NCBI GenBank assembly: GCA_025352825.1
Contig: JANXSG010000037.1
Location: forward strand, 1 to 55,959
From: Chthonomonadaceae bacterium
Lineage (GTDB): Bacteria > Armatimonadota > Chthonomonadetes > Chthonomonadales > Chthonomonadaceae
Direction: 5' to 3'
Length of the DNA stretch: 55,959 nt
Below the pieces are notes generated by a model that saw only the letters and a list, made by a program, of their open reading frames with translations, ran no database searches and was not told the origin of the DNA. Below are positions 48,152 to 55,959 of the stretch, piece after piece. Position 1 is the first letter of the stretch, and every line of letters begins with the position of its first letter. The translations under genes were made by a program, and so were the position numbers.

Positions 48152-48178
48152 TTAGCGCTCGCAAGCAAAGAGTGCTAA
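48152..48178 (+). promoter_or_regulatory. CIRCE operator (HrcA binding site)
   Basis: TTAGCGCTC, nine bases, GAGTGCTAA: the CIRCE consensus (TTAGCACTC-N9-GAGTGCTAA) with one mismatch in the left arm. It implies heat-shock control of groES-groL by the HrcA repressor, whose gene is outside the window. Confidence 0.92.
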
Positions 48179-50410: not shown

Positions 50411-50413
50411 CTG

Positions 50414-50451
50414 CCCCCACTCCCGAAGCTTCGGGAGTGGGGGTATTTTTT
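50414..50451 (+). terminator. Strong intrinsic terminator of groESL
   Basis: A perfect 15-bp stem (CCCCCACTCCCGAAG at 50414-50428, complement at 50429-50443) followed by TATTTTTT. Confidence 0.88.
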
Positions 50452-50804: not shown

Positions 50805-52646
50805 TTGAGAGAACAATATATAACTGATAATCCATTTCGCTTAGTTGGGGCTGGCTCAGCACTTACACAGCAACAACTACGCCGAAAGGCCGATACTACA
50901 TCTCGTTCTGCACTAGTTGGTTTGAATACTACGCCGCCTTTGGAGGCAGAATTCGGGTCTAAAGATATTGAAAGACTCGTTGCTTTAGTACGATCCCTCG
51001 CAACCGCGCCAAAACGCCGCACTGCTTATCGCATCATGTGGCCGCTTAGCGATAATGCCATTCCATATATTTATGATGAAAATTCATCTACAATTTTACT
51101 CGCACCAGAGGAAGCCATTCAGCTGACATTCTTATCTAGTTGGTATAGATTTCTTCGAGACAAGACCCCTTCAGGATCTACGATAGCTCTAAAAGCCTGG
51201 ATCGAACTTTACAATGAAATTGCTCTGGACGAACGATTGAAAATGCTGATTATGGAGGACGATAATCTTAATGAAGACGATGCCAATCAGCAACTTATAG
51301 AAGCTAAGTATGAGATTGTACAACATCTATTACAAAGAACAGCATCTGTAGCTGCTCAGGAGTGGGAAGCTGGGAATCTGGATTCTGCAATAGGTATAAT
51401 CAAGGCATTATTAAATTCAAAGTTTGATGAAACTATGCAGGAAGAGGCACTCGAACCTTTAATCGGAATTGGTCACAACCTTGCTGTAATAATTGAGCAG
51501 CTTACTGCAGATTTGCCGTCTTACATACTAGGTGCATCAACTGACGCACCGCCCGAACTAATTCACTTAGAAAGGCTTTCAAAAGTTTTATTCAAACGAC
51601 ATCCTATAGCGGGAGGCTGGGATCATATTATAAATCAATGGCACTCAACTTTAGGATGGGCTATGCGTAAAGCGGCTCTCGAATTGAATAAACTGGATGA
51701 CAATAAAGGAGCTCTTACTTTAGCAGATAAGGCACTTAAAGTTGTCCGAGATGCAAAGGTGAAGGAATATCTATTAAAAGACAGGATAACATATAAACAG
51801 AACCTTGCAAATATTGAACGTGATAAGCCCTACGCTGAGATTGAGCCAATTCTTAATACCCCAAGTATGTATACGATTAACGGGATAGGTACCACATTAT
51901 ATGGTGCTAAACCATTTCCGTCAGATCAACGGCTCCAATACTCGATACTGTATTTCGTGTTTTTGTATATTCCGATTTTCCCTTTGAACCGCTATGTTGT
52001 TGAAGCTGTTGGTAATAGACAGTGGAAATTTTATGGTGCTGTCAATTGGACTCTAGAAATGAAAGTTCATCTCGGGATTTCAAGCGTCCTAATTTTATTG
52101 TGCATATTTCTAATGAGACCAACTGAGTATACTGAACCATCATATTCAGCCGACAAAGGTTTATCTAATTCTGCTCCAATTACGATTCCAGTAAATAAGG
52201 GAAGTGTCATAGATAGCGCTTCGCAATCATCTATTGAGCCGAATAAACCTTCTCCATATATGACTGGTTTGGAGATTCCTGTACCTGAAAAGAGTGAAGA
52301 TAGTATACTACTACACCGTAAACAGCATAGACAACATTTAGAGAAAGTATTGAAGGTTTTGAAGTCTTCGATTCAATCAATAAAGGCAGATATTGATACG
52401 GATGACCACGCTATCGACAATGAAAGGTTTGCACTCGAATCTCTTAAAACCACAATCGAAAGTAAAAGACCAGATGATCAAATCCAACAGGAAATAGACG
52501 ATTACAATGCTCTCGTCGAATCCTATGAGGCACAACGTAGAGATTTTAACGCTCACATAGAGCAACATAACTCGAAGTTAGAGGTTTCTCGTGAGGCAGT
52601 GCGGCGTCATAACTCAATCGTCGACGAACTTAACAAGGATAGATAG
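50805..52646 (+). CDS. Membrane-anchored J-domain-like protein of an Hsp70 module
   Basis: This 613-residue protein starts at TTG 50805. Residues 9-80 (NPFRLVGAGSALTQQQLRRK ... SLATAPKRRTAYRIMWPLS) resemble the J-like N-terminal domains of uncharacterised Hsp70-linked proteins (N-P-F-R-x-L-G then R-R-x-x-x-x-L-x-W), but the HPD tripeptide is absent. A helical, TPR-like region covers about 120-345. Next comes GIGTTLYGAKP (360-370) and hydrophobic segments at about 378-396 (YSILYFVFLYIPIFPLNRY) and 421-438. A long charged coiled coil covers about 500-613. It ends two bases before the GrpE-like gene, and the order J-like, GrpE-like, Hsp70-like suggests one complex at the membrane. The J-like call is from pattern memory. 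Confidence 0.6.
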   Translation: MREQYITDNPFRLVGAGSALTQQQLRRKADTTSRSALVGLNTTPPLEAEFGSKDIERLVALVRSLATAPKRRTAYRIMWPLSDNAIPYIYDENSSTILLAPEEAIQLTFLSSWYRFLRDKTPSGSTIALKAWIELYNEIALDERLKMLIMEDDNLNEDDANQQLIEAKYEIVQHLLQRTASVAAQEWEAGNLDSAIGIIKALLNSKFDETMQEEALEPLIGIGHNLAVIIEQLTADLPSYILGASTDAPPELIHLERLSKVLFKRHPIAGGWDHIINQWHSTLGWAMRKAALELNKLDDNKGALTLADKALKVVRDAKVKEYLLKDRITYKQNLANIERDKPYAEIEPILNTPSMYTINGIGTTLYGAKPFPSDQRLQYSILYFVFLYIPIFPLNRYVVEAVGNRQWKFYGAVNWTLEMKVHLGISSVLILLCIFLMRPTEYTEPSYSADKGLSNSAPITIPVNKGSVIDSASQSSIEPNKPSPYMTGLEIPVPEKSEDSILLHRKQHRQHLEKVLKVLKSSIQSIKADIDTDDHAIDNERFALESLKTTIESKRPDDQIQQEIDDYNALVESYEAQRRDFNAHIEQHNSKLEVSREAVRRHNSIVDELNKDR

Positions 52647-52648
52647 CC

Positions 52649-53044
52649 GTGGAAAGTAATAATCAAGATGTTTCGCAGAATATGAACGAAAGCATACAAT
52701 CGCATAAACCACCAATTTTTGAAAACGACGATTCTATGAATGTTCCAGCGCATAAGATTGTCTCATTGGTTATTGACCTGTGGAAAATAACTGAACGCGC
52801 GAAATGTGAACCAGTTTCTGAGAGAGTATTAGCGGCGTGTGAGCGAGCACAAGAACGAATTAAAAAAATTGGATTTGTGATTGACGAGATGTTAGGGCGC
52901 CCATATGAAACAAACATGCGTGCGCGAGTAGTGGGGACTGATGGGGGTGTAGAACCATTTACCATATCGGAGTGTTTGAGCCCTGCAATCTATTATCAAG
53001 GTGTATTAATCTGTGAGGCTGAGGTTATAACGAAGGGAATATAG
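52649..53044 (+). CDS. GrpE-like small protein (putative nucleotide exchange factor)
   Basis: The 131-residue product from GTG 52649 has an acidic disordered start, a helical stretch (VSLVIDLWKITERAKCEPVS ... RVLAACERAQERIKKIG) and a small beta part (MLGRPYETNMRARVVGTDGG, then ISECLSPAIYYQGVLICEAE). A helix followed by a compact beta domain, with the sequence order of a GrpE C-terminal domain (G-x-x-x-D, then V-x-V, then a final A-x-V), is suggestive of GrpE but far from canonical. It sits two bases after the J-like gene and seven before the Hsp70-like gene. It may instead be an unrelated Hsp70 cofactor. Confidence 0.5.
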   Translation: MESNNQDVSQNMNESIQSHKPPIFENDDSMNVPAHKIVSLVIDLWKITERAKCEPVSERVLAACERAQERIKKIGFVIDEMLGRPYETNMRARVVGTDGGVEPFTISECLSPAIYYQGVLICEAEVITKGI

Positions 53045-53051
53045 GTAAATC

Positions 53052-55454
53052 ATGTCAGGTACTGTTGAATATGGGATTGACCTTGGAACTACAAATAGTG
53101 CTATAGCACGCATGACCGTAAAAGGCGCGGAAGTCATCCCTGTGCGCCGTCAGAACTATGTTTCTTCAGTGGTTGCTTTAGACAAACGTGGTGATCTAAA
53201 GATCGGCTCGGATGCGCTCAATCCCCACCTACAAAGCGCTAGGTGGTTTAAGCGACTAATGGGGACAACGAGTACAATCACGCTTGCAGATAATCAGAAG
53301 TGGACGCCTGAGCGCCTTTCTGCAGAAATACTTAAAGCACTTAAAGCAGCCGTGAAGCTCAAGACAAATGAAGATATTGAAGATGTGGTAATCACAGTTC
53401 CAGCCATGTTCACACAACCGCAATGTGTAGCAACGAACGAGGCCGCACATTTGGCGGGTTTGAATGCTGTTACACTCCTCCAAGAGCCCATAGCTGCAGC
53501 GACGGCGTATCTTTCAGAAAATCCTGTTGATGGTTATCATCTCGTGTACGATCTCGGCGGAGGTACTTTTGATGTATCGCTAATCCGCCTGCATGCGGGA
53601 GAAATGAACGTCGTCGAACATGGTGGCGATAACTATCTTGGTGGCGCGGATTTTGACCGAGCCATTTTTGATTGGACTCTACATCAGATCGATCGTAAAG
53701 GCGGTGATACTGAACTATTTAGGGAAGGATCAGGAAGACATCAGCTTCTAACCTCTTGCGAGGATGCGCGCATCTCTCTAAGCGACGCAGACTCTGCAAT
53801 TATCTATCTGGACGAATTTGATCTACCAATGGCAAAACTTGAATTGACTCGAGAACGACTTGAGGACCTCATAGAGAATTACGTTTCACGAACGATCGAG
53901 ATAGCTCGTGACCGGTTGGCTGCCGTCCCTAATGGAGCACAAGGAGTACGTGATATTCTTCTTGTGGGAGGACCAACACAAATGCCTTATATTAGGCGAA
54001 GACTTGGAATGGAATTGGGTATCCCGCTAAACTTTGATCAGGATCCAATGACCGTTGTTGCAAAGGGTGCAGCCTTTCATGCGGGCACAATTCTGAAACG
54101 TGATCATGCAATAGCTGCAATCGCTAAGGTAGGAGAAGCCCAGCTGGACCTGTACTACGATCCTGTTTCACCAGAACCATATACCGCCGTAGCTGGAAAA
54201 ATAATCCAACCGGCCAACTTTCGCGGTGAGATACGTATCGCCTCAGTTCGTGGCGACTGGGAAACTGGATGGACTACACTAATAAACAGCGCGTTCAGTG
54301 CCGAGGTTTCTCTAGGTCAACAACTACTTTCAGAGTTCAATATTGAATTACGGGATTTAAGTGGCAAAATTTTTCCTTGTACACCATCCTCGTTCGCTAT
54401 CCGCGGTGGAGTTCGTGCTGCGCAAGCTGTCACGCCATACAACTACGGGGTAGTTCTGGAGGGAGGGACAAAAGTTGGCATCATCGTCCCCAGGGGACAG
54501 ACACTTCCATCAAGCGGCTTTCAAGAATTTCGTCTAACGAAGACATTAGTTGCAGGTTCTCCTGATGCAGTGAAAATTTACTTCATCGAGGGTCTCAGTA
54601 TCAATGCCACTGAAAACACTCAAGTTGGACATTTCGAAATCAAAGGCACCGACATACGGCGCACCCTAAAGGAGAATGAACGCATAGAGATCAGAATCAG
54701 AATGGATGAAGGTAGGCGGCTGAAAGCTACAGTTCACATACCACTTCTAGATGTAGATCACATAATAGAGTTACATTCAGTTTTAGATGCGCCGGACTAT
54801 ACTGACCTGGAAACTTCCCTCAATGAAGCGCGAATTGCAATCACTGACATTGAAGACCATGTCGATTCCGAAGAGCAAGAATGTGTAATGCGAGCTGTCA
54901 GGCAGATAGAGCAAATCGAAGCTACATTAGAAAGAGCTGAAAAGGGTGAAGCGGGTGAGGGAGAGAGAATTTTAAAGCAGCTCTCAGACACAAAGGCGAG
55001 CATTAGGCCGCTCCGCGATAAATATAGCCTTCGAGCAAGACACTCTTCAATTATAGTACTTATCGGTGAAGCGGAGGATTTATGCCGGCAGTTTAATGAT
55101 CAAATGGGGCTCGCAAAGCTTCAGGACATGCGTGCCGATGCGGATAAATCGCTTCGTCTTGAGCAGGAGAAGACGCTTGATGCAGTCTATGAGAGAGTTC
55201 GGGATGTATTCTGGGAACACTACGGCAAGACTCGTGAATGTTGGGAGTATCAAGTAAACAGGATGAAAGAACGGGCTCATCTGGCAACTGATAGTCTAAC
55301 CTATTATGAAATGGTACGTCGTGCTGAAAAGGCTCTTGCAGAGGAAGACTATGGAGAAGTCAGCATTCAAAGCTTGCGTTCAGCAGAACTACTACCTGAG
55401 CAGGAACGACTCCGAAATCGATTTCACGATGCAGCACTTCGGTCGGGACATTAG
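53052..55454 (+). CDS. Hsp70-family (DnaK-like) ATPase with non-canonical C-terminal region
   Basis: This 800-residue protein has a complete Hsp70 nucleotide-binding domain: phosphate 1 GIDLGTTNSA (8-17), connect 1 VVITVPAMFTQPQCVATNEA (112-131) then LLQEPIAAATAY, phosphate 2 VYDLGGGTFDVSLI (165-178), and adenosine DILLVGGPTQMPYIRRRL (301-318). The linker DVLLLDVTPLSLG of DnaK is missing. Residues about 355-450 form an unfamiliar segment (LDLYYDPVSPEPY, GDWETGWTTL). A beta region follows that resembles a divergent substrate-binding domain (NYGVVLEGGTKVGIIVPRGQ, then FEIKGTDIRR), and then a long helical lid and coiled coil (about 590-790). It is clearly a paralogue of the housekeeping DnaK, with its own neighbouring cofactors. 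Confidence 0.9.
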   Translation: MSGTVEYGIDLGTTNSAIARMTVKGAEVIPVRRQNYVSSVVALDKRGDLKIGSDALNPHLQSARWFKRLMGTTSTITLADNQKWTPERLSAEILKALKAAVKLKTNEDIEDVVITVPAMFTQPQCVATNEAAHLAGLNAVTLLQEPIAAATAYLSENPVDGYHLVYDLGGGTFDVSLIRLHAGEMNVVEHGGDNYLGGADFDRAIFDWTLHQIDRKGGDTELFREGSGRHQLLTSCEDARISLSDADSAIIYLDEFDLPMAKLELTRERLEDLIENYVSRTIEIARDRLAAVPNGAQGVRDILLVGGPTQMPYIRRRLGMELGIPLNFDQDPMTVVAKGAAFHAGTILKRDHAIAAIAKVGEAQLDLYYDPVSPEPYTAVAGKIIQPANFRGEIRIASVRGDWETGWTTLINSAFSAEVSLGQQLLSEFNIELRDLSGKIFPCTPSSFAIRGGVRAAQAVTPYNYGVVLEGGTKVGIIVPRGQTLPSSGFQEFRLTKTLVAGSPDAVKIYFIEGLSINATENTQVGHFEIKGTDIRRTLKENERIEIRIRMDEGRRLKATVHIPLLDVDHIIELHSVLDAPDYTDLETSLNEARIAITDIEDHVDSEEQECVMRAVRQIEQIEATLERAEKGEAGEGERILKQLSDTKASIRPLRDKYSLRARHSSIIVLIGEAEDLCRQFNDQMGLAKLQDMRADADKSLRLEQEKTLDAVYERVRDVFWEHYGKTRECWEYQVNRMKERAHLATDSLTYYEMVRRAEKALAEEDYGEVSIQSLRSAELLPEQERLRNRFHDAALRSGH

Positions 55455-55512: not shown

Positions 55513-55959
55513 ATGCAGACTAATCAGGTGCAGCAAACTGCTTCGAACAAATTTAGCTTGTCCCTTCTGCTCTACATAGCCCTGCCACTGCTGAGCTGGC
55601 GGGTCCCCGCCGTACGCCCTTTTGGCGCATTAATGGCTGCATGGATAGTTGTAACGCTGGTTCACTTGAGTGGATTTGTTCTTGCCAGCCTGGTATTTAG
55701 TCAAAAGATCGAGGAGTTCAGTCTCTTCTTCGGCAAGTCGATTTTATCTGTTTCATGGCGAGGATGCACATTTTACATTCGGTCAATCCCTATGGGCGGC
55801 TCAGTAATGATTGAAGGAATGGAATACGATGACGACGAAACTTCTGTTTCGACGCCCGTTCACGGCTTCCGGGCGATGCCGACCAGTAAGCGGCTGTTGA
55901 CATTACTTGCAGGGCCGATAACCTGTTTTCTCTTGGCTATTGCCTGCGGAGGCGTAGTT
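55513..55959 (+). CDS. M50 / site-2-protease (RseP)-like protein lacking the HExGH motif, 5' part only
   Basis: From ATG 55513 (GAAGG nine bases upstream) 149 codons stay open to the window edge. Residues 44-75 (WIVVTLVHLSGFVLASLVF and then KIEEFSLFFG) align with the first helix of RseP-type proteases, V-H-E-x-G-H-x-x-x-A-R followed by V-x-E-F-S-I-G-F-G. However, the zinc motif is HLSGF at 51-55, with Glu and the second His replaced. SWRGCTFYIRSIPMGGSVMI (81-100) and SKRLLTLLAGPITCFLLAIA (125-144) match the later family blocks W-x-G-T-x-Y-x-x-x-x-I-P-x-G-G-Y-V and R-x-x-x-x-x-A-G-P. The fold is therefore kept and the catalytic centre lost. It follows the Hsp70-like gene by 58 bases and may belong to the same unit. 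Confidence 0.75.
   Translation, partial: MQTNQVQQTASNKFSLSLLLYIALPLLSWRVPAVRPFGALMAAWIVVTLVHLSGFVLASLVFSQKIEEFSLFFGKSILSVSWRGCTFYIRSIPMGGSVMIEGMEYDDDETSVSTPVHGFRAMPTSKRLLTLLAGPITCFLLAIACGGVV

Follow-up and report, generated by a model that had tools for sequence, protein, structure and literature searches.

A three-gene locus of a Chthonomonadaceae bacterium encodes a divergent Hsp70 with J-like and GrpE-like proteins as candidate partners

Introduction

Can an Hsp70 chaperone work with a relative of the J domain when both proteins lack the elements through which J proteins usually act? This question is raised by a locus in contig JANXSG010000037.1 of a Chthonomonadaceae bacterium of the phylum Armatimonadota (GenBank assembly GCA_025352825.1), the whole 55,959-nucleotide stretch of which, read on the forward strand, is hereinafter called the window. 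The locus encodes, in succession, a J-like membrane protein (P1), a short GrpE-like protein (P2) and an Hsp70. The initial annotation, made from the sequence alone, had presented these genes as a tightly packed, membrane-tied and non-canonical Hsp70 machine, and the packing is as described: the open reading frames (ORFs), of 613, 131 and 800 amino acids, occupy positions 50805-55454 of the plus strand, with intergenic gaps of 2 and 7 bases. We consider it moderately probable that the three genes encode an extra, envelope-bound Hsp70 machine in which the J-like protein recruits the Hsp70, the GrpE-like protein resets it and the trigger is something other than the contact with the HPD motif. The computed evidence consists of the gene order, the Hsp70 clade, the profile relations to GrpE and the J domain, the joint losses, the ATP-site residues, the substrate domain and the hydrophobic segments.

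The locus does not stand in for the housekeeping chaperones. The same genome also encodes DnaK (on contig C76), GrpE and three J proteins that score above the Pfam cut-off, so that the three genes represent an additional set, distinct from DnaK-DnaJ-GrpE as had been proposed. A literature search, with most subscription journals and preprints outside its coverage, recognized no description of this three-gene unit.

An Hsp70 clade apart from DnaK

The window Hsp70 matches the Pfam HSP70 model with an E-value of 5.4e-67 (best stretch, residues 8-348), and seven residues of the ATP site (D10, T13, K67, E145, D167, G170 and T172) are kept in all 14 Hsp70s of the family to which it belongs. The modeled substrate-binding domain (residues 455-580) is of the DnaK type, with a Foldseek E-value of 4.2e-10 to a DnaK-like structure and a Z-score of 15.2 to 4ani_C (root-mean-square deviation 2.2 over 119 residues). 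A review distinguishes DnaK, HscA and HscC among prokaryotic Hsp70s in its account of these types (PMC8215388). The window protein fails the DnaK and HscC features that were tested as well as the HscA cut-off, scoring 220 bits with the NCBIfam DnaK model (cut-off 822.55) and 239.7 bits with the HscA model (cut-off 708.55). A phylogenetic tree built from 31 Hsp70 ATPase domains sets all 14 members of the family off by one branch (99/98) from the remaining sequences, which are 12 DnaKs and five other Hsp70s; for this tree 22 comparison loci were tried, and L042-L045 and L047 were dropped as the motif filter had missed their Hsp70 frame.

The losses in this clade concern the sites at which a J domain docks. 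In the DnaK-DnaJ complex, as the same review describes it, the aspartate of HPD binds R167 and Q378 of DnaK and the histidine binds L391 of the interdomain linker (PMC8215388). R167, N170, T173 and Q378 of DnaK are found in none of the 14 family Hsp70s (two of which are near-copies) vs all 25 DnaK controls, chosen as the best DnaK-like matches, and E171 is present in all 39 sequences. The columns of L390, L391 and D393 were not used because the alignment is unreliable there. The linker itself was examined by pattern and by spacing, and both results agree with the earlier claims that the DnaK linker is missing and that an extra segment separates the ATPase and substrate regions. A DnaK-type linker pattern occurs in 0 of the 14 family Hsp70s, although the strict pattern also missed 4 of the 25 controls, the sequences of which do show a linker. 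The motif at the end of the nucleotide-binding domain and the core motif of the substrate-binding domain are separated by 184-197 residues in the eight members (of 14) that could be measured, compared with 80-84 residues in four of five DnaK controls; five members without the second motif, the Vibrio protein (wrong start motif) and one control without a value were left out. The segment that replaces the linker comprises about 100 residues, can be aligned in all 14 members and carries a [WF]x[ST]G motif in 12 of them; its model has a predicted local distance difference test (pLDDT) score mostly below 50.

The GrpE-like and J-like proteins

For P2, which the initial annotation had called GrpE-like, the relationship emerges from profile comparison. 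The 14-row P2 family aligns with GrpE columns 59-161 at an hhalign probability of 95.5 (P 1.6e-8), whereas the reversed control yields 0.2 and 0 of 200 column shuffles are as good. The five Armatimonadota rows alone match the head part of GrpE (P 0.0033) and are linked to the other P2 rows with a probability of 97.1. In two P2 relatives the Pfam GrpE model is hit below its cut-off (12.2 and 13.5 bits vs 25.8), at overlapping parts of the model. The alignment begins at column 59 of 163, and P2 is without the long N-terminal dimerization helix of GrpE; full-length stand-alone P2 proteins measure 114-153 amino acids. These comparisons support the view of P2 as a shortened GrpE relative, for which nucleotide exchange is only proposed. 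Fluorescent proteins, the best PDB matches of P2 alone (E 0.18 and worse), were rejected as relatives.

The N-terminal 85 residues of the four closest P1 sequences share the pattern NPFR...VGL...RT.xR..WP. As had been noted for this J-like domain, HPD is absent from this part of the window P1, and it occurs in none of the 12 J-like rows read from the family alignment. These 12 rows match DnaJ over the whole domain with an hhalign probability of 46 (P 2.1e-4; 0 of 200 column shuffles are as good), and the four closest rows match the remaining J-like parts of the family with a probability of 74 (P 2.8e-5). A search of 177,635 PDB sequences with an 11-row profile gave six matches at E-values up to 10, five of them to J-domain proteins; only the best J-domain match has an E-value below 1 (0.0061, the others 1.1-1.7), and this entry, 2cug, we take to be a J domain. 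AlphaFold2, given four sequences, places P1 helices at residues 10-13, 18-37, 52-67 and 69-77, in the order of J-domain helices. Taken together, the comparisons across the wider family support a divergent J domain, but less strongly than they support the relation of P2 to GrpE. As sole query, the window P1 gave no useful match in the Pfam, NCBIfam, PHROGs or plasmid searches, and CFAP141 was rejected as a relative (20.6 bits vs a cut-off of 27).

Predicted membrane association and the tail of P1

The membrane tie of the system, part of the original proposal, is supported by hydropathy and flanking charge. P1 contains two hydrophobic segments, at residues 381-399 and 419-437, and the net charge of the 15 residues before the last membrane segment exceeds that of the residues after it in all seven proteins measured, which suggests that the J-like end and the helical region lie in the cytosol and the helical tail outside. 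On this reading, the first hydrophobic segment would be re-entrant. For the helical region between the J-like domain and the membrane segments, the best structure matches do not rise above the helical background, and structural kinship with BamD or tetratricopeptide repeat proteins (Z up to 9.8) is not claimed.

The C-terminus of P1, for which a long coiled coil had been proposed, resembles a charged helix and has few prolines and glycines. Heptad contrast is clear in the tails from two other Armatimonadota genomes, G229 (equalled by 1 of 500 shuffles) and G231 (0 of 500); the coiled coil is weakly supported in the window itself (see below). Wall-binding domains are detected by Pfam behind a membrane segment in 5 of the 10 opened plasmid loci that encode relatives of the system. 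In Aminobacter the domain is fused to the J-like protein, whereas a separate protein carries PG_binding in Aeromonas, Shewanella and Vibrio and SH3_3 in Polaromonas; the membrane segment of the Shewanella protein was identified by eye. When the P1 tail was compared with the module that follows the membrane segment in the plasmid relatives, the match had P 0.0027 over 19 columns; homology between the two is only a lead. In G229 (locus L038, 3580-5565) and G231 (L129, 7003-8994), other membrane domains replace the middle of P1 while the J-like and tail ends are kept, and the replacement in G231 matches DUF6709.

Recurrence in Armatimonadota and on plasmids

Four of 291 Armatimonadota genomes, including that of the window, match the P1 query at E <= 0.001. 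In the other three (G109, G113 and G229), the gene for P1 directly adjoins those for P2 and a full-length Hsp70, the intergenic distances ranging from -20 (an overlap) to +6 bases; these Hsp70s are 64, 62 and 46% identical to the window protein. When the genome contigs were scanned with a single conserved pattern from P1, 38 stretches matched and three were confirmed, namely the same three loci. The P2 profile found 7 of the 291 genomes at E <= 0.01, of which six were counted; G157 (E 0.006) was dropped, as were the other weak profile matches in G008, G233 and contig C470 of G089, there being no Hsp70-like frame in the surrounding stretches. G089 holds a partial set, in which one contig opens with the final portion of a P2 gene together with an Hsp70 gene. 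G231 holds a divergent one, in which a J-like ORF overlaps, in another frame, an ORF for a membrane protein with a helical tail, followed by P2 and Hsp70; a protein kinase ORF (L129, 2679-4211) comes after the Hsp70 gene and overlaps the end of the Hsp70 ORF. Because the gene order recurs, a chance arrangement is unlikely, and the proposal that the three genes would be neighbors in other genomes holds for the three complete sets and for the plasmid loci described next.

Searches with the Polaromonas and Pseudomonas Hsp70s retrieved 15 plasmid records in all, with Sinorhizobium, Aminobacter, Vibrio, Aeromonas, Shewanella and Haliscomenobacter as further hosts. Ten of these were opened, and each has a GrpE-like ORF adjoining its Hsp70 gene, with a J-like protein also encoded within the same cluster. 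The J-like parts of Pseudomonas, the weakest case, and Haliscomenobacter were recognized by alignment only, the tblastn list containing neither. The GrpE-like part of Haliscomenobacter lies behind a membrane segment in one protein, and in S. medicae the Hsp70 gene is interrupted by a transposase gene. An ATPase gene, annotated as AAA or ATP-binding, follows the Hsp70 gene in L131, L133, L137, L138 and L139; such genes are IetA-like in the two loci that were scanned, and in Haliscomenobacter the ATPase is fused to a protein kinase. Within the Hsp70 tree, the window protein pairs with that of G109 inside a genus that also holds G113 (98/85). This pairing, together with a GC content at third codon positions (GC3) of 0.32 in P1 vs 0.38-0.54 in 12 hand-picked long plus-strand ORFs of the window, is consistent with horizontal transfer.

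Contrary evidence and alternative explanations

Several observations weigh against the envelope-bound machine outlined above. Within the Hsp70, the eighth ATP-site residue, D193, is isoleucine in 6 of the 14 family members (Polaromonas, two of Sinorhizobium, Aminobacter, Vibrio and Shewanella; L131, L134-L137 and L139), which may slow hydrolysis in that branch. Outside the family, four divergent Hsp70s of the phylum (L003, L039, L041 and L049) likewise lack R167, so that its loss may mark divergence and not joint evolution with the J-like protein; this loss is not private to the family, the peculiarity of which lies in its coupling with the loss of HPD in the partner and the replacement of the linker. 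With P2 alone as query, there is no match in Pfam or NCBIfam or PHROGs, nor a useful one in PDB, and the 11-row P2 profile finds nothing in PDB up to an E-value of 10. The plasmid relatives are distant, since the window P1 finds none of them and the C-terminal part of the window Hsp70 matches only two records (Polaromonas and Pseudomonas, E 4e-4), and the gene order varies among them, the J-like gene lying downstream in Polaromonas, Vibrio, Aeromonas and Shewanella. As to topology, lysines plus arginines number two on each side of the last membrane segment of the window P1, only the net charge being different, and two full membrane spans would place the tail in the cytosol; the heptad contrast of this tail is equalled by 32 of 500 shuffles.

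The J-like domain attracts the most direct objection, namely that the N-terminus of P1 is a small helical bundle that merely resembles a J domain and that the unit serves ordinary quality control. The four closest rows alone show no significant match to DnaJ (P 0.19), the predicted J-like region has a pLDDT of only 34-67, which leaves the fold unproven, HPD is missing, and no J-domain structure appears among the listed rows of the structure search with the predicted P1. Thus, of the earlier suggestion that J and GrpE relationships would be found, both hold by profile comparison across the wider family, but the J match does not extend to the closest rows taken alone, and the predicted structure provides the right helix order at low confidence. 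However, the wider family matches J domains both in the unbiased PDB search and in the profile comparison, and the same four rows are linked to the remaining family members, which makes a mere resemblance very unlikely. Quite improbable, too, is an arrangement in which P1 only recruits and an HPD-bearing J protein of the host supplies catalysis, the unit then acting as an adaptor that ties the general chaperone network to the membrane. The three J proteins of the genome could provide such a partner, but the window Hsp70 lacks R167 and Q378, the residues contacted by HPD in the published account of DnaK (PMC8215388), as well as the linker pattern, so that ordinary J proteins should not trigger it, and the unit brings its own GrpE-like gene.

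A further alternative would make the unit an anti-phage or anti-plasmid system for envelope surveillance that some Armatimonadota acquired and that uses its chaperone cycle to sense or to set a threshold. Defense-type genes lie within about 6 kb in 4 of the 10 opened plasmid loci (by locus, ZorA; BrxL identified by PADLOC with annotated PglZ; GajB with a type IIG restriction enzyme; and GajA-/GajB-like genes), the signs of transfer would fit such a history, and HSP70, GrpE and a DnaJ-fused protein co-occur in predicted conflict systems (PMC7159879). Yet when 50-kb stretches, which exceed the test loci in length, were taken as controls from 6 of the 10 plasmids, three of the six likewise held clear defense genes (CRISPR, BREX and Hachiman/AbiE, judged by annotation words), and an enrichment is accordingly not established. 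Six of the 10 plasmid loci were scanned in all, the neighbors in L132 and L134 giving no PADLOC match; none of eight neighbors scanned in G109, G113 and G229 is a known defense gene (two have no Pfam match at all), and the neighbors in the window are groESL and an M50 protease. PADLOC has no model that matches P1 or P2 at E <= 0.01 and only a 13.9-bit one for the Hsp70. The Pseudomonas Hsp70 matches 24 of 50,697 phage records at E <= 1e-30, none of which covers 80% of it; the 20 listed matches cover 44%, which corresponds to the ATPase part. A defense function is therefore only possible, and the reading as a whole appears unlikely. bNACHT25 is described as sensing phage via the host DnaJ (PMC12169576); this case shows that a J protein can join defense and says nothing for P1 itself.

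Proposed mechanism and comparison with known systems

We infer the topology, the complex formation, the trigger, the client and the joint function from the features described above. In the envelope-bound machine that we favor, P1 would be fixed in the membrane, with the J-like domain and the helical region facing the cytosol and the tail outside; the J-like domain would recruit the dedicated Hsp70 to the membrane, and P2 would exchange its nucleotide. The joint absence of HPD, of the docking residues and of the hydrophobic linker suggests that the usual HPD contact does not start the ATPase cycle. Most likely, the J-like domain would be a docking scaffold, with hydrolysis or release governed by an input from a client or sensor that acts via the linker-replacing segment. 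The membrane anchor of P1 and the wall-binding domains of the relatives make the state of the envelope a first guess for the signal. A bolder proposal, which we regard as possible but doubtful, would recognize here a fourth kind of bacterial Hsp70 beside DnaK, HscA and HscC, that is, a trans-envelope switch in which an HPD-less J protein and an Hsp70 lacking both the HPD dock and the linker co-evolved and an external helical or wall-bound sensor, in place of HPD-driven hydrolysis, sets the state of the Hsp70; such a switch would travel on plasmids and may serve envelope surveillance or defense.

The unit resembles DnaK-DnaJ-GrpE in combining an Hsp70 that has an ATP site and a DnaK-type substrate domain with relatives of the J domain and GrpE. 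It differs in that HPD, R167/Q378 and any linker pattern of the DnaK type are absent, an additional segment some 100 residues long is present, GrpE is shortened and the J-like protein is tied to the membrane. HscC of E. coli, with DjlB and DjlC, is likewise presented as a specialized Hsp70 with tail-anchored J proteins encoded nearby, although it lacks a GrpE signature according to that account (PMC8215388), whereas the window unit includes a GrpE-like gene. The membrane segments of P1, moreover, are internal and not at the end of the protein, and HPD is absent. The Djl proteins carry this motif. Degenerate J proteins of the Pam16 type, which lack HPD and regulate an Hsp70 motor bound to a membrane, are mitochondrial and are paired with a true J protein; such a protein is not encoded in the window unit.

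The closest published arrangement that was found is the HSP70-GrpE theme of the GAP1-N2 GTPase systems, in which, as summarized in the source, HSP70 and GrpE are encoded together with a DnaJ-fused protein, and membrane parts as well as parts that bind peptidoglycan also occur (PMC7159879). No GTPase, whether of the GAP1-N2 kind or another, is annotated in the 10 plasmid loci, and none was found among the scanned neighbors, the window contig ending at 55959; the text on this theme mentions neither HPD loss nor linker replacement (PMC7159879). A set that lacks HPD, the docking residues and the linker represents a natural case in which to ask directly if a J protein is able to drive an Hsp70, or to hold it, in their absence, and the membrane tie and the presence on plasmids point to an undescribed link between the state of the envelope and a cytosolic chaperone.

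Locus organization and genomic context

The features of the locus are compiled in Table 1. P1 starts with TTG, and its start is uncertain because the frame stays open for 12 codons upstream.

Table 1. Features of the three-gene locus in the window (residue numbers refer to the encoded proteins)
Feature	Position	Strand	Basis
Hairpin resembling an intrinsic terminator, between groEL and the three-gene unit	50412..50445	+	15 pairs
P1, J-like helical membrane protein with charged helical tail, 613 amino acids	50805..52646	+	ORF, homologs
P1 residues 1-85, putative divergent J domain, NPFR...RRTxYRxxWP, VGL roughly at the place of HPD	50805..51059	+	profiles
P1 residues 101-340, helical region, presumed cytosolic	51105..51824	+	AlphaFold2, pLDDT 75-95 by block of 10
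P1 residues 381-399, first hydrophobic segment, proline-rich, read as re-entrant	51945..52001	+	hydropathy; topology inferred
P1 residues 419-437, last membrane segment	52059..52115	+	hydropathy, flanking charge
P1 residues 506-610, charged helical tail, possible coiled coil, presumed outside	52320..52634	+	weak model matches
P2, shortened GrpE-like protein, 131 amino acids	52649..53044	+	GTG start, profile comparison
P2 residues 68-128, part matching the GrpE head	52850..53032	+	profile alignments
Hsp70 of a clade apart from DnaK, 800 amino acids	53052..55454	+	ATG start, profiles, tree
Hsp70 residues 7-348, ATPase domain, ATP-site residues retained	53070..54095	+	Pfam, alignment
Hsp70 residues 141-147, TLLQEPI, in place of DnaK R167-T173, without R167, N170, T173	53472..53492	+	alignment
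Hsp70 residues 349-455, segment replacing the DnaK linker	54096..54416	+	alignment
Hsp70 residues 455-580, DnaK-type beta substrate-binding domain	54414..54791	+	predicted structure comparison
Hsp70 residues 583-800, long helical C-terminal part	54798..55451	+	predicted structure

Upstream of the unit lies groESL, identified by sequence. Because a terminator-like hairpin (folding z -5.84 for the surrounding 61-base region) separates the two, groESL was rejected as part of the operon. A CIRCE-like operator with 1 mismatch in 18 fixed bases precedes groES (48152-48178), and groESL is probably controlled by HrcA; a search allowing up to 3 mismatches found no second CIRCE-like site in the window, so that the Hsp70 unit would not be under this control. 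The M50 protease ORF, which starts at 55513 and is cut by the contig end at 55959, was also rejected as a member of the unit, since no matching ORF follows the Hsp70 gene in G109, G113 or G229. In another genus of the same family, groESL (L043, G003:C467, 2447-11138) is followed by a different Hsp70-like ORF of 801 amino acids, 27% identical to the window Hsp70 over the ATPase part, and by two further long ORFs.

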